Both the position numbers and the translations under genes were made by a program. A DNA stretch of 64,000 nucleotides, taken from Leucosporidium creatinivorum. Lineage: Eukaryota > Basidiomycota > Microbotryomycetes > Leucosporidiales > Leucosporidiaceae. The stretch lies in the NCBI GenBank assembly GCA_001600635.1, contig BCKL01000003.1:1530928-1594927 (forward strand), in the 5' to 3' direction. This document shows, piece after piece, positions 2,953 to 57,565 of this stretch. The notes under the pieces were generated by a model. It saw only the letters and a list, made by a program, of their open reading frames with translations. It ran no database searches and was not told the origin of the DNA. Numbering within the stretch: the stretch's first letter is position 1; the number at the start of each line of letters is the position of its first letter.

Positions 2953-4186
2953 TCATCGCTTCCGCCAGACATCCCGCCAGAGCCCCAGCAGCCCTCGCTC
3001 ACGCTCCATCTTCGCCCAGGCTTTTGTCCCCGCGAACCCGACCTGTACTTTGATAAGGCCTTGCACCCATGACTCGTCGTGAGACGTCCAGTGGTCCGGC
3101 TGCTGGGGTACACCATTGATCGGGACTGGCGGGCGTCGTTGATGGGCCTCAGCGGTAGATCGTTCGGCTTGGGCGCGAGTGCTGGTGTGGGCGAGGTCGA
3201 GGAAGACGAGGGAAAGTGGTCCATCCTTCAGATCTTGACCCTTCAAGACGAGGATGTCGTCTGCCTGGGGCTCGAGGTAGACTATCCCTCGCTCGTGGAA
3301 GCGGCGGACAGCTTGCAAGGCCGGGGTGAACTACGAGCGACGAGGCGAGCAAGCGGCGGTCAATTTCTGATATCTTGTGGCCCACAGTGGGCATCGCGAA
3401 CTCACCAAGTTGTCTATCCCGTCCTCCAAGCCGAGCTCCTCGTCCTTGGCCTTGCGTTCCCGAAGGAGAAAGTCGCCGAGGGTTCGAGCGATCGCCGAGA
3501 GGTCTTCGAGAACGATACCGACGATACGCTCGCCGTGCGGGAGGTCGAAGTGGTAGAACCCGTAGCAGATAGGGATGTCGGCGCCTTGGAAGCCATTGAG
3601 AAGGGCGTAGCTGAGAGATTGAAGAGCGAGTCAGCTTCTCCCTTCGCCGAGCGCCGAGCACGCCGTCACCTTCAACTCACTTGCTCGCCTCTTTACTCTC
3701 CAGCCACGCGGCCGACCACCATTCCCAGAGGTCCGACTCATGGCTCCCTCCACCCTTTGAAATCGGGAAGAGCGACTCGTGCAGCAGCTTCACAACAACA
3801 TCAACCGGCTGTCCACCGCCGTCGCTCTTCGAAGCCTTGCAGCGCCACACCTGCGACCAGTTATTCTCCTCGGTCGTGTTCTGAAGCGCCTCAGTGAGCT
3901 CGAGCGACCAGGGAGTGTCGGAGAAGGCGGGACCGCTGTTGGCGAGGAGCGAGCGGAGGAGCGGACGGTGAGGGCTGAGGGCTAGGGAAGATGTAGGAGG
4001 GTAGGGCAGGGGAGGAAGAGCATCTTGATACATCGCAGGTCCTGTCCATGCTAGCTGGTCGCCTCGTTCGAGCGGTGTTGCTTCGGCGATGCGCCGGCGC
4101 TCGAGCAGCGCCGCCTTCTGCTCGGGAGTAGGGGGCGAAGGGTAGTACTTGGGCAAGTGGCTGTAGTCGAGTCGAGTTGGAGCCAT
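2953..4186 (-). CDS. Protein kinase-like protein, probably a pseudokinase
   Basis: Three exons can be read. The first (from ATG 4184-4186) opens with a proline-rich segment and holds WSQVWRCKAS followed by VDVVVKLLHES, which fits the glycine-loop and VAIK-lysine region. The second carries ICYGFYHFDLPHGERIVGIVLEDL, typical of the hinge approach in fungal kinase-like proteins. The third has HERGIVYLEPQADDILV and then LVFLDLAHT where active kinases have HGDL..NIL and a metal-binding DFG/DFD. The catalytic-loop Asp is therefore absent (LE in place of GD), and the metal site is degenerate. From this I infer a catalytically impaired kinase fold; it might still bind nucleotide or act as a scaffold. 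It shares a 406-base divergent promoter with TAF11. No closer family can be named from sequence alone. Confidence 0.65.
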
Positions 4187-32942: not shown

Positions 32943-34964
32943 CTTGGGCGAGCTGAAAGGTGTTGAGGAGACGAGCGACGAGAGACTAATGGGCGGTGGC
33001 CCGTTGTTGATGAGGTGAGAGCCGGAGCGGGTTGAGTTGTAGCGAGGTGTAGGCTGGTAGGCGGGCTGTACGCTGGGATAAAGTCCCTACGAGTCGGTAT
33101 GAAGAGGTACAGCCAAAGGGCGAATGAGTCGAGCGAGTGGGAGGAGCTAAAGAGGGAGGGGGAGGCTCGTCGAGAGAGGAGTGACTCCTTGGGGCGAGAG
33201 AGAGACAGAGGTCTGAGAGCGTAGAAGGTGGAGAGGAGGAGGGGTAGGTGCTCTCGTTAGCTTGTAGATCTCCCAGTCTGTAATGCTGTAGCTCACCAAG
33301 TTATAGCCGAGGTGTTGGTTGAAGCGAGGGGCAAGGTGGTCAACGAGCAGGAACGCCACAACTCACAAGAGAGACATGTATTCGGCTCTCGGTCCTTCTT
33401 CTTCTCTCGGCCCTCGCTCTTCTCCAACCCGTTCTCCTGGGCTGCAGCACTACAGGCCTACTCAACTACATTTCAGCTTCCCCCCTGCCCTTCCCGCTGT
33501 ACTCCAACAGCTCTCGCTCCCTCCCAAGGGCCTCACACCCCAAGACACCCGTCCGATCGCTGCCTCCGCTTCGAGTCGGCAAGGGCTACAGAATCGACTA
33601 GAAACGCGCGATACTCACTAGCGCCATACCTCTCCCCGCGCCTCTCACCTCATTTAACCCTCTCTGTATGCACTTCTCGTTCGAGCGGTGAGCTCGAACT
33701 TGGCCTTCCGCGCTTCTCCTTGCTCGCTTGGCTTCAACGCCGAGGTTCGGTGTGGCGTGGTAATCAACCTGACCAAGCTGCTCTGTCATTCAAGGCCACT
33801 CCTGTACTCGAGTGCGTGCTTCCCCACTTCGGTCCAAGGGCTGCGAGCTGCAGCCTTCGGACTTGCCAGACTACGCCTTGACGTCGTTACCTCTTCTCCC
33901 CCGTATCTCTCCACCATCCTCGCCCGCCCTACCTACCTACAACGACGTCATTTTGGTCTCTCCCCGCGGGCAAGATACCATCGTACAGCAGGACTTTCCC
34001 ACGACCCGAGCTAGCATTTGACGAGATCTCCCTCCCATGCAGCAAGAGGATGACGGAGAGGGAAATTGGCTTATCAGCTGACGAACCTTGGGGGAAGGAG
34101 GAGGAGGAGATTCGCTCATCTTGACCTTGATGGATGGATCGCCAGTGACTTCCCGCCTCGACCGACCGACCCGACCGACCGACGGCTCGGCGATGGTTCG
34201 TTTGAGATTGATGGGGAGGAGCAACCCGCCCTCGAAGGCGTCAGAGCGGTATCTGTAGACTTACAAGGGCGCCTAACATCGAACGTTGCGCAACTTGGTA
34301 ACCATCTGGTCGAGCTCGCCGCTCTCCAACGTGTTCTCCTGCGAGCAGCCACAGCTTCCTCGGCTGTGACCCTCCCTCGCGCGCTCGGCTGCTTTCGGTT
34401 CCCTCCCTCGAGGTTTCGAAACGTGTTGCACCTTCGCACCTCATCGACACCCTCTCTCCCACCGACGGCCAACCACTCCCAGCCCACCGAGCTATCCCCC
34501 TCTTGCCCTCGCCCGAGCCGAGATGAAGTCTCCGCCGATGCTTCGCGCTTCGCTAATCGCTCGGCTCGTCGTCCCGTCGTCCCGCTCCTCCCCCTCAGTC
34601 GACTTCAGCATATATCCAATTCAAGTGATGAGCAACGACTCTATCTCATTTAGCTCGGTCAAGTGCAAGTGCAAGTGCAAGTGCTGGCAACTTGGAGTCC
34701 TTGCTCTCGACCACCGAAGGGGAGGCACCCTGGGGCGAGCGACAAGTCCGGCGTTATAACCTCTTCGTTGGAGGAAAGTAAGATGGGTGTTGGGAGAGTT
34801 GGAGACGAGCTACGAGTAAAGGAGGGCGAGGCGATAGATGAAGAGGTCAGGAAACTTTGCCGAAGTTGGTCAGGCGTTGGGAGGAATTGGGTGAGAGGAT
34901 AGGGTAGGAGTGCTGTAGGTGGGCTGGAGCATATTGGATACAATGCTGTACAGCTTTCGAGCCT
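32943..34964. other. Intergenic region upstream of the Sfp1-like gene
   Basis: No gene can be supported. There are open frames on both strands with no family resemblance. On the minus strand a possible last exon, reading ENTLESGELDQMVTKLRNVR and one Cys before TAG at 34273-34275, follows a good AG acceptor. It looks protein-like, but I could not find its earlier exons, so I leave it as a hint of a small minus-strand gene around 34273-34650. Confidence 0.35.
34661..34684 (+). repeat. AAGTGC hexamer, four copies
   Basis: Four perfect tandem copies of the six-base unit. Confidence 0.9.
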
Positions 34965-35826
34965 CGCCGGGAGCGAACTAGGTAGGGGTAGAGCAAGAAG
35001 CTCGGCTGCAAATGTCGGCGCCGAGCAGTTTCGATCGCTCTTGATATCGCTGTGAGGCTGTGTAGCGACTTCTCTGGGCGTCTAAGGTGGCTAAGTGGCA
35101 GCTCTCTGGCCCTTTCTCGGTTAGGACACTCTCATGTTGAAGCGCCCCGACGGACTGGGAAGGAAAGGCTCTGCGCCGAAGGCGAGCAAGATGAGTGGTC
35201 TACGACTCTGTAGAGCTTCTTGTGGTCAAGCGGCGCTCCAAAGACAAAAAAGTTTTGACTTGAGGAGCCAGCAGTGATCTGAACTTCCTGTACGAGCTGC
35301 CTCAACCAGCGAGAGCTGAGCGGCGCAGCAATGTGCTATCGCCGAGTGATCCTGTAGGCCGACGTACGGCACTCGAGCCCTCGCCGAGGGTCATTATGCT
35401 GCGCAGACGACTTGGTTATATTCTCTTCAGTCGCTTGTGTACCCACAATCGACCTGGGAGCAGAGGAGAAGCGAGAGGCCAGCGCCGAGCATGAGAGGGG
35501 CCGGTTCTCGAAAAGCTCTGCTTCCATCTCAATCTGGCAGTTCAGCAGCCCTCGGACTGGAGTCTAACACACTACAGCTCACCTCTCAACAACTGCTGCA
35601 CTGAGCTCGGACCACCCACCAACAGGCAAAGTTGCGCTTCGACGCGCCCTCTCTCGCTCTTCTTCCTCCCTCACCTTCACCACTCGGTCAGTTTTCACCT
35701 CAAGTACCTTTCTCCAACGATGAGCTTCATTGTTGGCACCAGTCTTAATTCGCTCTTGCTTCTTCTTCCTTGACTCTCGGGTCGGAAGGAGGGGTGATTG
35801 GGGATGCTGCTGAATTCAACATTGGC
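34965..35826 (+). repeat. 0.86-kb dispersed repeat, copy 1
   Basis: This segment recurs in the same orientation at 48741-49610 with roughly 85-90% identity by eye, including long exact stretches (for example around 35259-35350). It ends in a pyrimidine-rich block followed by ATGAGCTTCATTGTTGG, which looks like a transcript leader and a start codon. The two copies lose a common frame after about 14 codons. A minus-strand frame of 63 codons is open in both, but most of its changes alter amino acids. No terminal repeats or target-site duplication are obvious. It could be a duplicated gene promoter, a non-coding gene, or an unrecognised element. Confidence 0.85.
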
Positions 35827-36832
35827 GTGGCTTTATACCCCGCGTCCTGAGGAGATACATATCTAGCAGCTCTCTCACTGTTGTGCAGAGAGCTTGCGCA
35901 GCCCCTTCACTGTAGTGCAGAGCAGTTTGAGCTGACCCAGCGCCTTTTTGCTCCGCACAGATTTACCCAGCGGTCGGAAGCTTTTCCTCCGGAGGCGAGG
36001 GAGATGGGAACGGGATGGAAAGTGCAGCGTTTAGGATGGTACTGCTGCTGCTGTAGGAGCTCAGCGTGGTCGAAAGTTGGCGCTGTAGCAGGGAGCGCCG
36101 AAGGACGCTTGAAACGAGCCGCTGTTCTTTACACACTTTATTTGAGCCCTGAGAGCAGCCACCATGTACGCGAGAATGCCTAGCAAGCCACCTGCGAACC
36201 CTCGGCGCTGTACAGCTGCAGCAGAGCCTGCTCGAGCACAAATGCAGCTTGCTCGGCGAGGAGGGGCTCCGAGCCTTGCGCCGAGCTCTCAAACTGGGGC
36301 TGGCGAGCTGCAGGGGACAGAAGAGACTCGTTCAAGCCGTCCTGTACGACTTTTGCTGTACTACAAGATTGGTGCGCCCTCAGAAAAAGCCCTTCGAAGC
36401 GAGGAGCACGAACGCGTTTGAAACGCAGCTTTTTCCCTTCTGCCTCTGCTCTCTTACAAGCTCGCCGACTATCCCTAGGCGCTCAAATCACTATCAGTAA
36501 CCCCTGCTAGCTCCTGAACCACACTCCGAAGCGTCTGCAAGCTTTTGTCGAGGTGAGACGGGGTCTCTGCTCTCTCGAGGGACAGAGGTGGACGTGCTGA
36601 CCACCTTCTACCACTTTAGGACAGCTCGAAAAGGTGGGAAAACTCGTCTGAAGCTCTCTGTACTCGCCTGGGCCAGTCTCGGCTGCAGGGGAGCACGACC
36701 GAGGCGACTTAGCCTCTCGCCTCCCTTCTGAGCTCGATGGAGAGCGTGTGAGACTTTTTCGCGCTGTGGTAAAGGGCTCAGTTAACCCCCGTGTATCCCG
36801 ACAGCTACGACAGCGTCCCCCTGGCCCGTGCG
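35827..36832. promoter_or_regulatory. Upstream region of the second Sfp1-like gene
   Basis: No gene seen. Near 35874-35930 a CACTGT-GTGCAGAG unit occurs twice in tandem with small changes. A possible extra first exon of the zinc-finger gene (ATG GAG AGC at about 36738, donor GTGTGAG, acceptor CCCGACAG) lies just upstream and would keep frame. Confidence 0.4.
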
Positions 36833-44399: not shown

Positions 44400-45385
44400 G
44401 CTTCGACGGAGTTGAGAAGCGTGGGCGGATGAAGGTAGAGGTGGGGGTACAGAGAGAGGTGAGAGAGTGGGTGCTGGTGCTGATTCGTGTAGGAGCTGGC
44501 AAAGGGTGAGGTCGAGCAAGGCGGCGGCGGATTCGACTGTTGGAGGCGAGGAAGGGGAGGTCAGCTTGCTGAGTACGAGGGTGGGGCAGGATGCGACAGT
44601 GAGGTAGGCAGCATAGCAGGGAGGAGATGGCTCGCTTCCAGCAATGTCAGATCCCGATCCCCAACGGAGATCACTCAGAAGCGAGCACACTTCGGCGCTC
44701 ACTCCCACTGCTAGGGTCGGCGAGCACAGCCCTCGACCCAACGATCACCAGCAGTGGACACTATACAGATACAGTGAGGCGAGTTCCCGCATCACTGATC
44801 CACTCGCCCCGACGCTGCCACGAGCGACGAGAGCGAAGTAGGAAGGCAGCGACTCCGTTCCGCGCACCTCTGCTCGACGCTCAAGCATCTGCCGGAGCAC
44901 TCCGAGAGTCGTGTTGCACGCTTTCCATCGCACACGATACGAACAGCTTCCCGCTGGCCACATCGCCGCGAAACGCGTCCAGCGTCGACCGTCGCTCGCT
45001 CCCGCCGCCTCAGCGTCTCTGTCAAGAACCAAGGCGTCGCCGATCGCATGTTACTCTGCGCCAGACTCCCCTCTATCGATGAGAGCTCAACCCAAAGATA
45101 CGGCCTCGACGCCCGCCCCCATCCCGAGCTCACCTTGCGAAAGCGCGAGTGAGTAGAGGTGGGAAGGCGGAAAGCGAGAAGAACCACCGAGTCAAGTAAA
45201 CGCACGACTAGCGCCAACCGCGAGCCATGTCATCGACGTCTCAGGAGCGACTCGTCACCTTCCCCTCTTGGCTAGACCAGCGAACGAAGTGTTCGACTCG
45301 TCGCTGAAGCGAGGATTGACCCGCTCAGCGCTGCGGCGTCGCTATTGGCGAGGCTCCGCTCGTACCCTCAGCTTCATTGAGCGCC

Positions 45386-45644
45386 CACAAGCCCCATCAA
45401 GGCCCACGAGCAACTCGAAGCCAGCGAGAGGAGAAGCCAGCTCGGCGCTGCTGACCCGATCGAAACGCGGTATGGGAAGGCCGGCGGCGAAGGCGTCGCC
45501 GTGAGAATTGCTGTACACAGACAGAACGCCGCATGCCCAGGTACAGCGAACCTCGGAAGTCTGCGCCTTCGCCTTGCTGTCGACCGCTTCTGAGGGTCGG
45601 CTCGGGACGAGTGCGAAGGAGTGAATAGCCACTAAGCTTGCAGG
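45386..45644. repeat. Conserved core inside the giant-intron block, copy A
   Basis: 259 bases matching 54065-54323 with no gaps and only about eight changes until its right end. The surrounding intron is far less similar. Confidence 0.85.
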
Positions 45645-46629
45645 CGTGGCCTCAAGATGGATATTCGCCTCGGCATCGCTCTTGCGCGACAGCCAGCACG
45701 AGTGTCCCAGAGTCGGCGACCTCGATTTTGACCGCCTGCTCGAACTCGCTGGGAGAGCAAAACGAGCGCTTGCAGCGAGCTGGCGCACCGACTCCTCACA
45801 CCTGGCGAAGCTCCGAGCATCACTGATACTCGAGGACCAGCCGATAATGCGAGACTGCAGCGAAGGCCCGCCTCGAAACCCAGAAGCGAGCGGCATCCCT
45901 TGCTCCTCAGCGAGGTGAAGCCATTGGCTCTAGCACTGGAGAGACCACAAGTCGCTGGTTCTCATCTCAAAAAGCCACAGCGCCCATCGAGCGCCGCAGC
46001 AGGAAAGAGGCGAACTCCAATCCCTTCCTGCGCTCGACGCCGGACAATCCGAAGCGAGAGGAGCTCAGCAGCAACGCACAGCGAGGCCCTTGAGAGCCCA
46101 CCGTACAGCAGCAGCGTTCTCCTGCTCCGCTCAATTTCATCGCCGACTTGAGACGCCAAGCCGAGCTCAATCGGGCGAAGCTCGTGCGGAAACGCTTGCT
46201 CTGCGGATCAGTGACGTTTGAGGGCACCGTCACGCGTGGTAGCTACCAAGTGAAGTCTGCCTCGCTGGGGCGGACAAGCAGCTCGGAGCTGGCGGAGCGA
46301 GGCGAGACGAGCGATGCAAGTTGAATCGAGCCGAGGCGAGGAGCGCCACCAATCCTCTCCAGCAGTGCGAACAAGAGGGGCAATGCCTACTAATCGCTAA
46401 AGCTGAGCAGGCTACACGTCCGCTCAGCCAAACCGAAGAGCAATGTCCTCCGCCTCCTGCAACAGCACCGAAGCGAGCCCCGAAAGGACACCCTGACGAG
46501 TGAGAGAAGCTCCACCAGTTCGCTCAAACGGCTAGCTACAGTCGCTCCAAGTGACCGCCGCACGTCCGTAAGCGAGCCTTGCGGTTTCCTAACCCCTCGA
46601 CTTGACTCTCCTCGACTCGAGCGCAGACA

Positions 46630-46727
46630 GGACACAACGAGCTCGACTGATCGCCGGAGGAGCTCGAGGCCAATTTCGGGACACAACGAGCTCGACTGAT
46701 CGCCGGAGGAGCTCGAGGCAAATCTCG
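46630..46727. repeat. Two tandem 49-base units
   Basis: Unit beginning GGACACAACGAGCTCGACTG occurs twice with two or three changes. Copy B of the block has a single, diverged unit near 55310-55350, so the doubling is private to copy A. Confidence 0.85.
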
Positions 46728-48740
46728 AACGAGCGCAAACAGCCTCTTCCGAGTAGATGTACTACGCACAAGTGGGCCGCTTGCGCTCGAGGCAACCTCG
46801 AGCTGCATCTGACGACGGCCGAGCTCCACGTCTCTCCAGACCTGCTGGCTCTGCCAGCTGTGGTCCGCGAATTTATCGTCAACATAGCACAAACAAGCCA
46901 CAGCTCCCCTCGAGCCGCCGCCCATCCATGAACAAGCCGCGGGCTAACCCAGCTCCTCCTTCTCGCAGCCTCGCTTTCCAGAGCGAGCCGTGCAGAGAGG
47001 AAAGCGTTCGCCTACACGGCCAAAACACGCGCAACTTCACTGCTCACACCTCTAGCCGATGGGAGATCGCGGGCCCAGCGCAGCACAAGCGAGGACCGAT
47101 GTCTGTGCCGAGCCGGGCGGACATTGATCTGCGCCGAGCCGGGCGGACCCCGAACTACAAGAGGGCGAGAAAGCAGCAGCAGATGCACCAAGCAGTAGGC
47201 ACCTATTCACCAAGCAGCTCGTCGCCCTGCGTACTCATAGCGCGTGCAAAACAACGAGAAGTGAGAGAGAAGCACTGCCGAGCTGAGCTGGGATGGCCGA
47301 GCGGGACGACGAAGCGAACCAAGGAGCGAGGCTACCTCTATTCCTCCAAATCGAGTGGGAAGCATAATCCACCAAGTACGCCACCTCACCCGGAGGAGGA
47401 GCAGACGAGCGACCGCGCTTGTCGCTCCGAGAGGGAAGGCAGATTGCGCCGAGCTGCGAAGAAACTTGCAAGACCCACATCCGTAGCGAAGCGAGCTCGA
47501 TCGAACTCACTGCACCACAGGGACTGCCCTGCGCGACCTCCACCTTCGCCCGTCGCCGCCTTGCGCGGCCAAAGCCTACTCTCGGCTCGTACGCGGCCGC
47601 GCTCGCGACAAGCGGAAGGTCGGCGCATTTCCTCCTCACCACACGCTTAACGTACTCCGCCGAGCACATTGAGCGTTCGGAGAGTTAGCGAGCGAGCGCC
47701 CTTCCCCAGTCCTTTGAACGCCGAGCCGAGTTCGAGCGGCGACGACGCCGATCAGCGAATGGGCCTGGGATTGAACAGGGTCACCATCCGCGCATAGCAG
47801 ACCCTCGGAGGTCTACTATATAACAGAAGGCTCCCTCTCGAAACCCAGCCTGTAGCCCAGCTCGAGGCCCCCGCTCCCAAGCCGCTGTGTCGCTCGCGAG
47901 CAACGAGCTCCGCCGCGATCATCGCCGGTGAGCAGCGACCAGCAGGTAGCTACACTCCGTAAGATCTCGGCTGTCCTCCCGCTCGTTCTGACTGCCTTTC
48001 AGCCCTCCTTGCTCGTGCTCGAGCGTGTCGGAGTGCACGTGCTGCGTCTGCTCACCTGCGGGGCGGGCTGGAGCGCGACAGCAGGTTAGCAGCCAACAGA
48101 TTCCTGTAGGCTACTACACCCGCACAAGACGCACTCAGCCCCACCTGAACCAGCCAAGGGCAGGGCAAACACGCCCCCCCCCTCGCTACATCTCCCGCCC
48201 AGCTCTGTAGTCTTCCAGCTCCTCCCAGCAGCCCAGCCCAGCCAGCAGCTAAAGAGGTACATGACAACTCACCTTCCCTCCCTTGATTATGCTTCCCAAA
48301 CTTCCTCAACAGCTCTTTCCAATCCATGCCCCCCTGCTGTCCTCCTGCTCCTGCTCCTGTAACGAGATGACCATCTTTTGTAGCCGGCTGCGCTGTACTC
48401 CAAAGAGCTGCACGACGGGCTGAGTCTAGTGTAGAAGAGTAGAGAGAGGATTTGGCGGGGGAGGGGGACATCGCGCTGGGACAGGGCGGGCTAAAGAGCT
48501 ACATGGCGGTCTTTGGTCGACGGTGGAGCTCAGTGTTGCCTGTGAGAGTAGGGTGAAGCCGTACAGTCGCTGTCGAGGTCCATAGCAGGCGAGTCGAGTT
48601 TGAGAAGCGGAACGAGAGGGAGAGAGATGAAGTCGGTGAGAGCGGCGAGATGGCTCGAGGCTGAGAGTTGATTGACAGGGTAGGAGTATTGGAGCTGGGC
48701 TGGAGCCTGAGTGATACTATGCCCTACAGCCGTGAGCCCT

Positions 48741-49610
48741 ACCGGGAGCGAACTTGGTAGCGGGAAAGGTTGAAGCTCGGCTGCGATGTCGGCGCCGAGC
48801 AGTCTCGGTCGCTCTTAAAGTCGCTGCGAGGCTGTGTAGCCACTTGTCTGGGCATCCAAGGTGGCTTAGTGACATGTGTGCTTGCCCCTGTCTCGATCAC
48901 GAGCCTCTCATGTCGAAGCGCCCCGACGCACCGGGAAGGAAAGGCTGAGGCTTTGCGGCGAAGGCGAGCAAGATGAGTGGTCTACGACTCTGTAGAGCTT
49001 CTTGTGATCAAGCGGCGCTCTAAAGACAACAGAGTTTTGACTTGAGGAGCCAGCAGTGATCTGAACTTCCTGTACGAGCTGCCTCAACCAGCGAGAGCTG
49101 AGCGGCGCAGCAATGTGCTATCGCCGAGTGATCCTGTAGGCCGACGTAGGGCACTCGAGCCCTCGCCTAGGGTCATTATGCTGCGCAAACGACTTGGTAT
49201 TATTCTCTTCAGTCGCTTCTGTAGCTACAATCGACCAGGGAGCAATGGAGAAACGCGAGGCCAGCGCCGAGCATGAGAGGGGCCGGTTCTCGAAAAGCTC
49301 TGCTTCCATCTCAATCTGAAAGTACAGCAACCCTCGGACTTGAGTCTGACACCCTACAGCTCACCTCTCGACACCTGCTGCGCTGAGCTCGGACCACCCT
49401 CCCGGCAGGCAAAGTTGCGCTTCGACGCGCCCCCTTCTCGCTCTTCTTCCTCCCTCACCTTCACCACTCGGTCAGTCTCTCACTTCAAGTACCTTTCTCC
49501 AACGATGAGCTTTATTGTTGGCACCAGTCTTAATTCGCTCTTGCTCCCTCTTCCTTGACTTTCGGGTCGGAAGGACGAGTGATTGGGGACGCTGCTGTTC
49601 AACATTGGCG
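48741..49610 (+). repeat. 0.86-kb dispersed repeat, copy 2
   Basis: The partner of 34965-35826, same orientation. Here it lies between the truncated YPP1 copy (exon 1 side) and a fragment of YPP1 exons 2-3, so it sits at a rearrangement junction. The pyrimidine-rich leader-like end and ATGAGCTTTATTGTTGG are at about 49430-49520. Confidence 0.85.
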
Positions 49611-49648
49611 CAGTGGCTTCTTACTCTGGCAGCTCGACTTCTCCTCTT

Positions 49649-49905
49649 GTTCTGCAGGATATCGACCACCTCATCGTAAACTTTCGCTGCGCGAGTGTAG
49701 GCCGTTGAAGCCTCGAGCGGGTCACCGAGATGTGTCAGAGAATGGCGTGCTCGGCGGGGAGGCAGAGGTCGGCGAGCGGCTCGACTAGAAGCTCGGAAGC
49801 AGGAGCGAGGAGCTAGAAGCTGAGACTCACCTTCTACAGCGCTACCACCACCCCCGACACCAGATCATACCCTTCCTGAGCCCCATCGACCAGGAACTCC
49901 GACCT
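49649..49905 (-). pseudogene. Fragment of YPP1 exon 2 end, intron and exon 3
   Basis: About 257 bases match 52691-52966, in the same orientation: the 3' part of exon 2, the following intron and the first part of exon 3 (reading LEASTAYTRAAKVYDEVVDI in the fragment). It begins 78 bases beyond the real YPP1 stop. Identity is about 75-85%. It carries the part of the gene missing from the truncated copy at 44400-48471. Confidence 0.75.
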
Positions 49906-49982
49906 TCGCCGAGCTCTCCCTTTCGCGCTATCTCAAGCCACGAGATCATAAGCTCATATACTTCCCGCTTTGGCCTCAAATA

Positions 49983-52900
49983 CTACAGCACCCTCGGCAC
50001 GACCTTCCACTCCCTCACCGCCCTCGTCTCCTCCAACTGCAACGCCCATACCAGACACTCCCTCTCCCTCTCCTTCCTCCTCCCCTCCACTCCCGGCACT
50101 AACTGAAAGCACCTGCTCAACTCGAACCACGCTTCCGGTGAATCCCACCCCTGTCGCTTGGTGAGCGTCTCGAGGATCCCTTCGGCGAAGGGGAGCTTTT
50201 TGGTGAGCCCCGAGGCGGTGGTCGTCGCTTCGGTGAGGTAGAGGCGGGAGAGGAGGATGAGAGCGGGAGAGTGGTCGGGCACGAAGGAGAGGGATTTAGC
50301 GAGGCAGGTTCGTGCGAGCGAGAGGTCGGAGCGAGCGGTGTGGTAGAGGGCGAGCTATCGGCGAGGAGAGAGAGGTCAGTTCGGGAGCCGAACGAGGGAA
50401 GCGAGAGCCAAAACTCACCTGCACCCAAACGTCAGGATCATCCGCATCCAACGCCTCCGCCTCTGCAATCGCTCCCTTGGCATCCTCCAACCTCCCCGCC
50501 CTCCTATACGAAGCAGCACTCAGCAGCCACAAGTCGACGAGCAACTTGGTCGCCCGAGGGTTAGTCTCGACTGATGGAATGGCGTTGCCAAAGCTCAGCC
50601 GAGTTGCTGTAGCATCGTCGGACGAAGGTGTGCTTGGCGAGTTGTCGAGCGAGACCACGGAGGGATTGTTGGCCTCTATGGCGAGGGCGCGCCGAGAGCC
50701 AGCGGGATTGGTCGAGGAGAGGTTGTTGGGAGTGCGAAGGCCTGTTGTACAGCAGGGAAGTTCAGCGAAAGCGGATCGACTCGGGAGCAGACCAGCTCAC
50801 CAGGAGTGTGCGAAGCGATGCTGTGTCGAATGCTCCGTGGCCGACTGAGGATCGAGTGAGCCTTCTTGGTCGAAGCAGCCGGCTCGTTGATCGAAGGAAC
50901 GTTGAGCGTCGGTGGTGCCGTCTTGGTCATTTCTGCAAGTATAAGAAGTCTGATCAGCCTCTGAGAGAGAGAGAACAGCAAGAAGAAGCTCACCTGGAAC
51001 GTCCTTGATGTTGCCGAAAGCGGCCGAGAAGTAGGCCAACAAGCTCTGCTGATCGAGTAGGGCCGCCTCGGGACCCTCCATGACCTCGATGACAACATTC
51101 TTGGTAATCCTCAGCTGGACCTCAGCCTCGAGCTGCTCCGTCTCGTCGCGGAAGTAGTCGAACGGCGAGAGTCCCGATATGGTGGAGGCGGGATCGTCGA
51201 GATGGGAGAGTCGAGCGTCGATGCCGTTGAGGTCGATGCCGTTTCCCTTAGTCTGAGGCTTGAGCGACTCCTCGCCGTCCTCCTCCTCCTCGACATCATC
51301 GTCCAACGCCGTCTCCAACACCAACAAGCCGTTCCCCCAGTCCTTGCCCTTGGCTCCCGCGAGCAGACCGAGCAAATGCCATGCCTCTCGACTCTTCTTG
51401 CCGCCAGGTAGGGAGACGGCCATTCGAGCCTTCTCGAGGGCGGGCTCGATCTGACGAAGTTCGGCGAGTTGGTAGGAGAGGTGGTAGAGTGTTGGCCAGG
51501 AGGTGGGGTCGAGGACGTGGGCCTTTTGGAGGTGAGTGAGGGCTTGCGAGTGTGAAGTCGGTCGGGACGAGGGGTTGGCGTCTGTGGAAGAGAGGCAAGG
51601 TCAGCTGTAGCTCGGCGCTCGACAAAAGCCAACGCGGACTCACCTTTAGCAGCCACCGCTCCAATCGCCAACCCCAGGGCCTCTTCAATCCTACTCTCCA
51701 ACCTCTTATCCTCCTTCAATCGGACCTCCTGACTCCCATCGAACACCTCCCTCGCCTTCCTCGCAAAGTCCAATCCCCTCTCCGGCTGTCCCAGATTCCT
51801 AATAAACACCCTCGTGCCCCAAACAGCCGTCCTCACAAAGATCTGATCCGAATCAAAGTCACTCTCCACTTGCTCGTCCTCCTCATCGCCCTGCTTCTCT
51901 CCCGCAAGATCAGCAGTCGGATCCAACTTCTCGCCCGAGGCCTCGGCTTTCCTGAACCTCCGTAGCTCGCGAGCGACCTTTTTCGGATCCGTCTCCTTGG
52001 ATTTGGAGAAAAGGTCGAAGTAGAGGGAGAGGGATTTGGCCGCTTCGGCGTGAGAGCCGAGGGCCACGAGAGCGCGGGAGAGGTGGCGGAGGAGGCGGTG
52101 GGTCGCAAAGGTGTGGGTGAGGGCGCGGTACATGATCTGTTTGTTGGCGTAGGCAAGCATCAGCGATCAAGCTCCTCGAAAGAGAGAAGCTGAGAGACGA
52201 CAGCTCACATCGACCATCTCCTGCGCTCCTTCTCTCCCCGCTCCACTCCTCCTCCACCCATCCTCCACCTGATCCAAGAACACCAGATACCGCTCATTAC
52301 TCTCCCCCGCCGCAGGAAGCTTGGTCTCCCTCTGCAGGATCGCCTCCTGCGCTCGGTTTGAGAGGGAGAGATCAGACCATGAGTGCGTGGCGTAGAGAAG
52401 GTGGCGGAAAGAGGTGTGGATGGTGAGGAGGTGGGAAGGGGTGTAAGGGGTGAGGGAGGAGGAAAGGGAGGCGCGAGAGGAGAGGTAGATGTAGAGCTTG
52501 TGGTGAGGGTACGAGGTGCTCGGCGGGCTGTGATCGAGCGTAACGAGGATCAGCTGCCGCCTCTGCGCCCCTCTCCCATCCGCCTCGAGTCCCCGAACTC
52601 ACCTGTTCTCCCTCCCCCAAGCGCACAGCCTGAACAAGACGTCCTCTCCCACTCGATGCAGCTCGACATCACCGCCGCTCTTCGACCCACTGTTCTGCAG
52701 GATATCGACCGCTTCGTCGTAGACTCTTGCTGCACGAGTATAGGCCGTTGAAGCTTCGAGCGGGCGACCGAGATGCGTGAGAGAATGGCCTGTTCGGCGA
52801 AAGCGGCGAGTGTGAGGTCAGCTCGACGTTCGAAGGGGAGCTCGGAAGCCAAAATGCGAAGCAGTGAGCTCGAACTCACCCTCTACAGCGCTCCCCACCA

Positions 52901-55900
52901 CCCTCAACACCAAATCGTACCCCTCCCAAGCTCCATCAACCGGACACTCCAACTCGACTCCCATCAACCCCTCGAGACATTTCTCCCATCCTCCCAGCGC
53001 AAACAGTGCGTGTGAGCGAACGATCCGAGCCGAGTTCTTCTCAAAGGGAGTGCCCGAGCCGGAAGCGAGGGCGGCGTCGAGGGAAGAGAGGGCGGTTTGA
53101 AGTGGAGCGTGGGTGGAGGATGGGAGAGGTGGGGGTACGGAGAGCGGTGAGAGAGTGGGAGCTGATGGTGATTTGTGTAGGAGCTGGTGTAGGGTGAGGT
53201 CAAGCGAGGCGGCCGCGGAGACGACTGTGGGAGGCGAGCAGGGTTAGGTCAGCTTGCAAAATCCGAGGAGGGAAGGTGACGCGTCATTGAGCTAGAAAAC
53301 ACAGCGCGGCGTGGCTTGCTCGTCTCCAGTGGCGCATCCTGGACAACGACAGCAATCACGCAGAAGCAAGCCCAGCTCGGCGCTCACTCCGACCGCGGAG
53401 GTCGGCGAGCACAGTCGTCGATGCGAGCGTTTCCCGAGAAGGTTCCAGCCACAGTCAGATAGATATGAGGGAACCTCTCGTCGCCAGAACGCATCGACTC
53501 CTCCCGACGCTGCCACGAGCGCCGAGGCGAAGGAGGAAGGCAGCGAGTCGCTCCCGCCAGCCCAGTGCTTACTCCTCGTGTGTACAATCAGCCGAGACAG
53601 CCACCACCAGTGACCTCTATCATGTACAACGTAGCCAGCTTCTCGCCAGCACAGCGCCACGAAAGCCTCCAGCGCGACCGTCGTTCGTGCCTCAAGCTGG
53701 CCGACGACGAAGGCAAAGGTCAATAGTCGTAGCACTCAGCCCCAAAAGCGCGGCTGCAGCTGAACGCTGGACGTAAAGAGCCGGTCACGACGCCCTACCC
53801 CGTCTCGAGCTAGCCTTGCGAAAGCGCGAGTGAGTAGAGCTGGGAAGGCCGAAAGCGACAAGAAGCGCCGGGATCAGTGAACGTACGACCAGCGATAAAC
53901 GCTAGCCATGTCGTCGACGTGTCCGGAGCTACTCATCGCCTTCTTCTCTCGGCTCTACGAGCGCACGAACCCAGCGCTTGACTGATTGCCGAAGCGAAGG
54001 CGACAGCTCGGCATGCTCTTGCATGTCATCTCCGTTCGTCTCTCGAGGAGCTCACAAAGTCACCCACAAGCCCCATCAAGGCCCACGAGCAACTCGGAGC
54101 CAGCGAGAGATGAAGCCAGCTCGGCGCTGCTGACCCGATCGAAACGCGGTATGGGAAGGCCGGCGGCGAAGGCGTCGCCGTGAGAATCGCTGTACACAGA
54201 CAGAACGCCGCATGCCCAGCTACAGCGAACCTCGGAAGTCTGCGCCATCGCCTTGCTGTCGACCGCTTCTGAGGGTCGGCTCGGGACGAGTGCGAAGGAG
54301 TGAATAGCCGCTAAGCTTGCAGGTGTAACCTCAGGAAGAACACCTGTCTCGCCATCGCTCTTGCGCGACAGCAAACACGAGTGTCTCCGAGCCGACCACC
54401 TCGACCTTCAAAGCCTGCTCAAACTCGCCGAGCGAGGGGAACGAGCTCCTGAAGCTTACTGCCTCCTCGAAGCCGCTAACGACGGCCACAAACAGCACTG
54501 CTGTACACAGGGTAGCCGATGGCGCGAGACGGCAGCAACGCCCACTTGAGATCCGATATGAGCCATTAGGCGTCCCTTCAGCAAATTCAGGCCATCGGCG
54601 CTAGCAGAGGAGGGTTACAAGAACCTGATCATCTTGCCAGTCCACCGTGCCCATTGAGCACCGCCGACTGTAAGAAAGACCGGCAAAATCCCTCTCTTCC
54701 CACGCTTCGAGCGGGAGCGGAGCCGAGAGCCTCGAAGGACATCTAGCAGCGCACAGCGAGCTCCTTCAGAGCCCACCGTACAGCAGCAGCGTCTCCTCAG
54801 CCTCTCGGCTTACTCTCGTCCTTCGTCCCCAACTCGGCGACCGAGAGCCGAGCTCAAAAGCTCGACAAAGCTCGTGCGCGCGATGCAGAACCTGCAGATC
54901 GGGGCTATTGAGACCACTTACTTTCGACACGCAGCTCACCAAGTGCAGCCCACCTCAATGAGGCAAACGACCAGCTCGGAGCTAGCGAGGCGAGACGAGC
55001 GAGGCGGCAGGGGTCAACCAGGGCAATCAGCACGGTCGCTCCTCCACAGCAATGCGGAAGACAGGTGCTGATGATGCTCTCCATCGCTCAAGCTGAGCAG
55101 GCTAACTACCTGCTCGACCTCCGCGAAAGGCCACGTCCTCTGCCTCCCGCAACAGCGCCGAGCTGAGCGCCAAGAATGCCTGCAGATGCTCCGGGCGTGG
55201 AGCCGGAAGTACGTCGCTAACACAGCAGGCCAAAGTCGCTGTAGGACTGCCGCCTGTGCGTAAGCGAGTTCTGAAGCTCCCAGCCCAGCGCTCGGCTCTA
55301 CTCTGGCCTTGAGAACGGGCCGAGCCTGACTGATCGCCGGCGGAACTCGGGGTTGAAATCGCAGAGAAGCAGTTCCGACGAGTAGCGTTACTACTCGAGA
55401 AAGAGCTGACTGAGTCGACTCGACAAAAGCTCGAGTCCCCTTCATCATCCGCGACACCAGAGCCCGCTAATTCTCCCGCGGCGACAAGTCTGCAGGTCTT
55501 TGGGCTACCATTGTGCAGCTCGACGATCACTTCAACGCAAACAAGCCACAGCCCCCACAGAGCCCCAGCCTACCCATGAGCGAGCCTTCGAGCACCCTAG
55601 CTCCTTCTGCCTCGCAGGATCACGCCGAAAGCGAGATGTGCAAGGGCCGACGCCACGGTCTTCACGACTACAGCACAGGTAGCTTTATTACCCATGTCTC
55701 GAGCCGATGGCAGATGTCGCGAGCCCTGCACTGCCCTGCACCGTGAGAACGAGCGAGCGAGGAGCTTGGGTCGGCCCTCGACCCTTCAGAGGCGGATAAC
55801 AGGACATTGGCACATGCACTGCGCGCGAGTTAATCCTCTACCACAGGTCGTTGCCCTGCGCACTTCACGAGTACGCGAAACGACAAGAAGTGAGAGAAAA

Positions 55901-57124
55901 GCCCTACCGCCGAGCTGAGCTGCGAACGCCAAGCGAGACGCTGGACAGAGACAGAGTAAGGTGATTGCATCATGCACTCCTACCGAGGGCGCAGCGCACT
56001 CATTCGAGTACGCCACCTCACTCGGAAAAGGAGCAGACGAGTGACCCCTCGCTGGTCGCTCCGAGAAGGAGGGCCGATGGCGCCGAGCCGCAACGTGCGA
56101 ATCGAGGATCAACTCGACCTACCGAGAAGCAAGCTCGTTCGCTCGCCAGACGCAGGACAGGTCTCCTCACGTTCCTCTGCAGCAGCCAGGCTGGAGAGTG
56201 AGAGCTTCGGCCCCCGAAGCGAGCCCGACCTGGCAGCGCGGCGTGCGAGAAACGGTGTGCGAGAAGGGAGTGGATACGTTCCAGCTCCATCGAGCGTTGA
56301 GCATACCCATCTGAGCATCCCAAGCGCTCGAGAAGCCGGAGACTGCCCTTCGTGCGCTTTGGAACGCCGAGTCCGAGCGCCGACGACGCCGAGCTGCGAC
56401 CGCGCTGGACCAGCTGCACCTGCAGCACAGCAGGCCTCCCAGAGTCTACCATACTACAGAAGGCTTCCTTCTCGCGCCCCTGCTTGCTCCCTCCGAGCCT
56501 GTAGCCCATCTAGAGGCCCCCGCTCCGAAGCCAGCCCGCGCCCGCGACGAGCGGATGTGCAACCACAAAAATCGCCGGAGAGCAACCGCCGAGCAGGCAG
56601 CTACCCTCCTTACGATCTGGGCTGCCCCGTCGCTCGTGATGACTGTCCTACAGCCCTCCTTGCTCGTGCTCGAGCGAGCGCCGGAGTGCACGTGCTGCGC
56701 TTGCTCACCTACGGGGTGGGCTGGAGGGCGACAGCAGGGTAGCAGCCAACAGATTCCTGTAGGCTACTACACCCGCAGACGACCCACTCAGCCCCACCTG
56801 AACCAGCCAAGGGCAGGGCAAACACGCCCCCCCCCTCGCTACATCTCCCGCCCAGCTCTGTAGTCTTCCAGCTCCTCCCAGCAGCCCAGCCCAGCCAGCA
56901 GCTAAAGAGGTACACGACAACTCACCTTCCCTCCCTTGATTATGCTTCCCAAACTTCCTCAACAGCTCTTTCCAATCCATGCCCCCCTGCTGTCCTCCTG
57001 CTCCTGCTCCTGTAACGAGATGACCATCTTTTGTAGCCGGCTGCGCTGTACTCCAAAGAGCTGCACGACGGGCTGAGTCTAGTGTAGAAGAGTAGAGAGA
57101 GGATTTGGCGGGGGAGGGGGACAT
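49983..57124 (-). CDS. YPP1: TPR protein Ypp1 (PI4-kinase complex subunit)
   Basis: In yeast Ypp1 (TTC7 in animals) links the PI 4-kinase Stt4 to Efr3 at the plasma membrane. Exon 1 (56926-57124) gives MSPSPAKSSLYSS, WKELLRKFGKHNQGRE and ends in phase 1; the next exon (from 53224) continues as VVSAAASLDLTLHQLLHKSP in the matching phase. The LRKF.KHN..R.VV junction is what the fungal family shows. Later exons hold helical repeats: RIVRSHALFALGGWEKCLEG, EASTAYTRAARVYDEAVDIL, HTFATHRLLRHLSRALVALG, QALTHLQKAHVLDPTSWPTL, AWHLLGLLAGAKGKDWGNGL, and C-terminal TPRs LWLLSAASYRRAGRLEDAKG and SLARTCLAKSLSFVPDHSPA. It ends VREWKVVPRVL. The 3.7-kb first intron is extraordinary for this genome. If that intron is wrong, the gene would start near 53.3 kb without a recognisable N-terminus. 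Confidence 0.8.
53225..56925 (-). other. Candidate 3.7-kb first intron of YPP1
   Basis: Donor GTGAGTTGTC follows exon 1, and the 3' end has the GCTGACC branch-like motif and CCCACAG typical of introns here, so both ends look like a normal short intron with about 3.6 kb inside. The interior shows no domain that I recognise. Open frames occur on both strands, but the corresponding frames in the second copy are broken or unrelated. It contains the 259-base core at 54065-54323 and a block next to exon 1 (from about 56651) that is nearly identical in the second copy. Confidence 0.65.
54065..54323. repeat. Conserved core inside the giant intron, copy B
   Basis: The gap-free partner of 45386-45644. 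A minus-strand frame of about 105 codons is open through both, but nearly every base change between the copies would alter an amino acid, which argues against selection on a protein. Confidence 0.85.
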
Positions 57125-57565
57125 TGCTGTCGTCGGGGAGGTGGGAGGTGGGAGAGGCGGAAGCTGTAGGTCGACAGAGGGGTGGGAGAGCTGTAGGACG
57201 GTAGATCGCCGGCGAGACGAGAAGACGAGATGACGACCAAGTGAGATGTAGGAAGGAGTGCTGGACTTAGCGACTCTGAGCTCGGGGTCACCGAACTCGC
57301 CGACTTGGCCGCTGGAGCTTTAACTCTGCCCAATTCGTTTCAATTCCAACGGCAACCAATTCTACCGTCTTACAGCTCCCCAAACAGCCTCTGCACCAGC
57401 CTATCGCCCTACAGCTCTCCCCTCCCTCCGCGACTCCATCTCAGAAGCAGCGTCATCGAACCCTGAGCCCTCCCGTGCGTCTGTCTGCTCTCGCTCGCTC
57501 ATCCTGTAGGGCTACAGCTGACCTACACTCCTACAGCAGTACCGAAGAGGCTAAAGCACACCATC
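57125..57565. promoter_or_regulatory. Divergent promoter, YPP1 / Rab18-like
   Basis: 441 bases between two starts with at least six CTACAG/CTGTAG hexamers (for example near 57164, 57191, 57371, 57411 and three within 57500-57540). The YPP1-side boundary, right at its ATG, is where similarity to the second copy ends. Confidence 0.5.

Follow-up and report, generated by a model that had tools for sequence, protein, structure and literature searches.

Does a gap of 3701 nt between the first two exons of a fungal gene represent a genuine intron when the predicted introns of the same genome have a median length of 68 nt? This question is raised by YPP1, a gene on the minus strand of a 64,000-nt stretch of contig BCKL01000003.1 from the basidiomycete Leucosporidium creatinivorum (assembly GCA_001600635.1, positions 1,530,928 to 1,594,927; this whole stretch is referred to here as the window and all coordinates are given within it). 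In this study, we analysed the locus computationally and consider it quite probable, judging from the sequence, that 56925-53225 is a true spliceosomal intron, the first of YPP1 and of exceptional length.

In the gene model, exon 1 (56926..57124, minus strand) is 199 nt long, encodes the first 66 residues and ends in phase 1 after ...KFGKHNQGRE. The donor GTGAGT follows at 56925 and opens intron 1 (53225..56925, minus strand; GTGAGT...CTGACCTAACC...CCCACAG), which closes with the acceptor ...GCTGACC...CCTCCCACAG, the last base of which is 53225; from 53224 exon 2 carries the frame on in the phase required (V|VSAAASLDL). Exons 2-9 (49980..53224, minus strand) encode a tetratricopeptide repeat (TPR) protein and are separated by seven introns of 59-90 nt, which from intron 2 to intron 8 measure 90, 75, 72, 62, 61, 59 and 64 nt. 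Joined together, the nine exons (57124-49980) form an open frame of 985 aa ending in ...KVVPRVL, and this frame is open only when the 3701 nt of 56925-53225 are spliced out; the reading frame is kept across the junction. The preliminary description of this locus had proposed a first intron of about 3.7 kb between exons in matching phase, with ends like those of ordinary introns. Both points are borne out: the intron measures exactly 3701 nt and lies in phase 1, and its splice sites stand at the top of the short-intron range, with a donor score of 9.6 and an acceptor-with-branch score of 12.4 against 95% points of 9.2 and 12.2, respectively, in 183 predicted short introns.

An exon upstream of exon 2 is also called for by the coding sequence. 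Extended back from 53224 into the intron, the frame of exon 2 meets a TAA before any ATG, and the earliest ATG inside exon 2 is located at 52964, 86 full codons in, making translation from a start of its own impossible before residue 153. Since there is no usable start in or before the early part of exon 2, a protein covering this part needs a 5' exon. We also applied a home-made ab initio gene finder, which combines codon log-odds with donor, branch, acceptor and length scores. Its training sequence, 264 kb in all, consisted of the window and another 200 kb from this genome, the first training being on the short introns of YPP1 itself. With introns of up to 5000 nt allowed, exactly 56925-53225 was chosen, although the program places the YPP1 start at the internal ATG 56980.

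With regard to the protein, engineered TPR chains rank first among PDB sequences (E 1.6e-8 and 1.2e-6), and the best natural matches are three TTC7B sequences (E about 2e-5, residues 503-609); a further piece of this match, which reaches the shared C-terminal end, is insignificant (0.3 bits). TPR_14 scores above the Pfam cut-off and no TTC7-specific Pfam model matched the protein. It is probably, on these sequence matches, of the TTC7 type, and the name YPP1, which was given in the preliminary description, is kept as a probable one. Exon 1 may correspond to the N-terminal region of fungal Ypp1/TTC7 relatives, which have a KF.KHN..R-type motif at this place. The yeast counterpart of YPP1 is an essential gene. 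A search of the fungus's own genome with the YPP1 protein returned 12 matches, every one within this locus, and the gene described above (copy A) is the sole intact YPP1 gene found in this genome; the own-genome searches score best candidates only, and this applies to all copy and no-copy results taken from them. In a collection of bacterial and archaeal genomes, queried with 466 of the 985 YPP1 residues, no relative was confirmed.

The locus contains a second, broken copy of the gene. This truncated paralogue (copy B, 44418..48471, minus strand) consists of exon 1, an intron of 3736 nt (44537..48272, minus strand) and the first ~119 nt of exon 2; beyond this point the sequence is unrelated. 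It was located by comparison of the window with itself and by alignment, and the own-genome DNA search gave matches at this locus only. Donor and acceptor are both kept in copy B, the donor being the same as in copy A and the acceptor scoring a good 11.6. Identity between the two copies declines gradually with distance from the ATG. A near-identical tract (56706..57124, minus strand) covers exon 1, in which 199/199 positions are identical, and the first 220 nt of the intron (212/220). From 56705 to 54330 the introns are then 62% identical (1422 of 2291 aligned bases), some blocks approaching the level of unrelated sequence, and from 54060 to 53225 they are 64.5% identical (528 of 818). Between these two stretches lies a second near-identical island (54061..54329, minus strand), which is 96% identical (258/269) with flanks at 62-65%. 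The shared part of exon 2 is 85% identical (101/119); of its 18 differences, 5 fall at the first, 3 at the second and 10 at the third codon position.

Some further features of the duplicated locus were also seen. The 5' border of homology between the copies lies at most about 3 nt away from the ATG (57124 and 48471), and the sequences upstream do not align. CTACAG motif clusters occur in the 5' regions of both copies and elsewhere too. A 49-base unit is present in two tandem copies at 46630-46727 in the intron of copy B, an array of a kind not reported for copy A. A relic of YPP1 (49648..49903, minus strand; 75% match), which corresponds to intron 2 with the adjoining end of exon 2 and a portion of exon 3, lies directly downstream of copy A. 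This relic sits between copies A and B, upstream of exon 1 of copy B, and from its position the duplicated locus has been rearranged or once had a third copy.

How unusual is an intron of this length? Within the 264 kb, 256 introns were predicted in genes scoring at least 30: 183 are at most 120 nt long, 48 measure 121-500 nt, 12 measure 501-1000 nt and 13, including YPP1 intron 1, exceed 1000 nt. One of the 12 other predictions above 1000 nt (1648 nt, on the control sequence C1) resolves into two genes once long introns are disallowed and looks fused. When the 15 other predicted introns of more than 800 nt were pooled, their T-A skew was -0.009, compared with -0.003 in intergenic DNA; by this indirect argument from an intergenic-like strand composition, most of them are probably gene fusions. 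A 3.7-kb intron is likely to be a rarity in this genome. Among the titles and abstracts returned by literature searches, none describes the YPP1 3701-nt intron. Fungi mostly use intron definition, pairing splice sites across short introns, and this sets a limit to intron length (PMC2397502); mean intron lengths in surveyed fungal genomes fall short of the vertebrate extremes above 1 kb (PMC8476143); and first introns tend to be the longest, with a modest mean effect of about 40% (PMC2518113), whereas YPP1 intron 1 differs 50-fold. The closest precedent that we found is in Yarrowia lipolytica, in which introns span 41-3,478 nt and 16 of them exceed 1 kb (PMC2911113). The 3,478-nt intron, in YALI0D18403g, is supported by cDNA and has an alternative start and a coding sequence (CDS) inside it (PMC2911113). 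Like this intron, that of YPP1 is, on our reading, a fungal spliceosomal intron of more than 3 kb near the gene start with an N-terminal exon on its far side. The two differ in that the Yarrowia intron overlaps a 353-aa CDS, has a second start site and is backed by cDNA, whereas no nested CDS was found in the YPP1 intron, which is predicted from sequence and which, in contrast to its Yarrowia counterpart, is duplicated. Given this precedent of more than 3 kb, the kind is already known, and the YPP1 intron is an extreme, duplicated member of it.

A different type of evidence comes from the strand composition. On the YPP1 strand, T and A make up 23.0% and 15.6% of the copy A intron and 22.8% and 15.4% of the copy B intron. 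The resulting T-over-A skew of 0.19 is higher than in any of 386 overlapping 3.7-kb windows of control sequence, the most skewed of which reaches 0.177. On the sense strand, T outnumbers A in all 18 chunks of 200 nt in copy A and in 16 of 18 in copy B, and the skew is not present in the three flanks measured. Among predicted introns the same skew is 0.24 at 42-120 nt, 0.19 at 121-300 nt and 0.05 at 301-800 nt, compared with -0.003 in intergenic DNA. Transcription-coupled repair would be expected to leave an asymmetry that stays constant along a transcribed region (PMC10946897). With this expectation in mind, we take the constant T/A asymmetry as a sign of, and as consistent with, long transcription of the YPP1 strand.

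Several results weigh against a genuine 3701-nt intron or against evidence that might be brought forward for it. The margin of the gene finder is small, with a score of 104.0 with exon 1 and 101.6 without it (2.4 units). The score per codon of exon 1, -0.10 in its own frame and -0.05 in another, does not look like that of coding sequence, and that of exon 2 is just +0.02. Exon 1 has no significant homologue among PDB sequences (one chance-level match, E 1.7) or in Pfam. As to composition, G exceeds C in the intron (0.08) and C exceeds G in the predicted short introns, which is the opposite sign; the longest same-sign T/A runs in the controls reach 15 chunks (C1) and 9 chunks (C2), so that the run alone is not unique. 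The 4-mer asymmetry of the intron correlates with that of short introns at r 0.23 (copy A) and 0.27 (copy B), and 240 of the 386 control windows have at least the copy A value; a short-intron-like k-mer asymmetry was rejected, and this comparison lends no support to long transcription of the strand. We also dropped the idea that splice signals inside the intron are selected against. On the sense strand there are 3 branch-acceptor pairs in copy A and 2 in copy B, compared with 7.8 and 7.2 expected from dinucleotide shuffles, and counts as low as these were reached by 11/200 and 5/200 shuffles, respectively, which is suggestive; set against 420 genomic windows, however, the introns are ordinary, with 1 (copy A) and 2 (copy B) strong internal acceptors when 14% of the windows have at most one and 26% at most two.

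If the intron is genuine, it might be long because of what it carries, be it a regulatory element, a noncoding RNA or a nested gene that has escaped detection. We regard such cargo as unlikely. In its favour are the lengths of the two introns, which stay within 1% of each other (3701 and 3736 nt) despite deep divergence, together with the 96% identity of the 269-nt island and the steadiness of the strand skew. However, the truncated copy B keeps the length too, and the island is no more alike between the copies than is the 220-nt beginning of the intron, which belongs to the other near-identical tract, so that gene conversion would suffice without any function. Searches of the contents point the same way. 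There was no Rfam match at gathering scores over the window, nor at E up to 1 over 53100-57200, and a tRNA search found none in the intron, which speaks against a known RNA family or a tRNA inside it. The intron contains 11 open reading frames (ORFs) of at least 80 aa; neither the five of these that were scanned nor the read-through of exon 1 had a Pfam match. Ten of the 11 have frameshifting gaps and stops when compared with copy B, and most of the eleventh (54060-54374) falls within the near-identical island, its 6, 10 and 6 differences at the first, second and third codon positions showing no codon pattern. On the basis of the ORFs, the Pfam results for five of the 11 and the comparison with copy B, which revealed no coding relic, we decided against a nested protein gene. 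Two other candidates were also rejected: a dispersed repeat or element, as the paralogue is the only match to the intron among the best candidates scored, and a tiling of small introns, of which there are 0 units on the sense strand in each copy with about 0.6 expected in each.

A second alternative, also unlikely and given slightly less weight than cargo, is that the main YPP1 mRNA starts from a nearer first exon or from an internal promoter within the 3.7 kb, with exon 1 serving as an alternative or unused start. The lack of detectable homology in exon 1 and the small gain in gene-finder score would fit this, and there is a precedent in the two start sites around the Yarrowia YALI0D18403g intron of 3,478 nt (PMC2911113). 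Yet with introns capped at 3000 or 1000 nt the gene finder called no 5' exon at all, giving up exon 1 and choosing none closer to exon 2; a KH-type motif, a pattern of our own choosing, occurs solely in exon 1 among the three sense frames of 57124-53100; and exon 1, donor and acceptor have been retained together in copy B. An assembly fault at a tandem repeat, which might have made both the near-identical tracts and the long gap, is very improbable: exon 1 plus about 140 nt of intron do show a single base difference between two copies separated by 8.65 kb, and the identity does end at the ATG, but no N was seen in the stretches of sequence inspected and for the greater part of their length the introns disagree at about 35-38% of aligned bases, which marks them as separate loci.

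The comparison of the two copies also allows a history of the intron to be proposed. For the most part the two introns are only about 62-65% identical, and they are nearly equal in length (3701 and 3736 nt), from which it follows that the intron was already long at duplication, as the preliminary description had suggested. The simplest history would be an old duplication of a locus already holding the 3.7-kb intron, followed by some period of constraint on exon 2 of copy B and later by the truncation of that copy. Later gene conversion over exon 1 and over the internal island would have homogenised both, and the two near-identical tracts do look like products of such conversion when aligned. 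The intron interior would be largely unconstrained noncoding DNA, and old, with about 35-38% of aligned bases differing between the copies. As to how the length arose, the preliminary description had proposed that about 3.6 kb was inserted into a short intron; candidates are one insertion, gradual growth, or a rearrangement upstream of exon 2 or of the 5' end, any of which may apply. The marks of a transposable-element insertion, namely further genomic copies, terminal repeats and element proteins, were not found in the intron; the own-genome DNA search, among the best candidates that it scores, returned no copy of it except the paralogue, direct and inverted repeats inside it are short and weak, and the five ORFs scanned had no Pfam match.

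For expression of YPP1, the transcript would start upstream of 57124 and RNA polymerase would cross the whole 3.7 kb. The spliceosome would then join 56926 to 53224, most likely in one step and helped by the very strong donor and acceptor. It is improbable, in our opinion, that the giant intron is, or recently was, removed stepwise, with a 217-nt piece spliced to a zero-length ratchet point before the remaining 3.5 kb. The candidate site, a motif noticed before being tested, is in copy B (48055..48056, minus strand; CTAAC...GCAG|GTGAGC), 217 nt into the intron, and has an acceptor of 10.3 and a donor of 8.1, both typical of short introns. In 400 kb strand-bases of control sequence there were 0 such sites at strict thresholds, 1 at thresholds of 7 and 5, and 10 at 5 and 5. 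The counterpart in copy A (56709/56708) has a weak acceptor of 4.2 and falls below all three threshold pairs; the copies differ here at the branch base (56739) and at the -3 base (56711). A step at this point would shorten the intron by just 6%. Ratchet points in flies need a cryptic exon that follows them (PMC8605326). The copy B site is like the Drosophila ratchet points described there in that a strong acceptor directly abuts a strong donor in a long intron. It is unlike them in the weak acceptor of copy A and in the donor of a recursive splicing (RS) exon: within about 250 nt downstream none scoring above 2 was found in copy B, and copy A has one of 2.7. The fungal stwintrons described in PMC5639578 belong to the [D1,2] type, with lengths of 99 and 109 nt, and differ from the YPP1/copy B site. 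We thus treat the ratchet point as a possible lead and not as a finding. If stepwise removal is true, it would amount to recursive splicing in a fungus of short introns, the site being retained in one paralogue and lost from the other. As a separate observation, retention of intron 1 in copy A would leave a frame open for 139 codons (56705-57124), and the TGA stop overlaps the possible ratchet donor.

Other repeats are present in the window. A direct repeat of ~940 bases, 88% identical, is formed by 48674-49619 and 34898-35833, and the own-genome search finds only these two; its differences are spread evenly over the three codon positions, so that it is not coding-looking. Three more diverged pairs, of about 300-365 aligned bases and 69-83% identity, are 15414-15713/17448-17742, 61669-61950/62782-63079 and the inverted 31043-31383/37423-37774.

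The strand-composition signal seen in the YPP1 intron might be of use in detecting further long introns of fungi that are overlooked by gene finders. Furthermore, a 3.7-kb intron in a gene for which one intact copy was found, the length of which has been held in a diverged paralogue, provides a natural test of how a short-intron spliceosome copes with distance.

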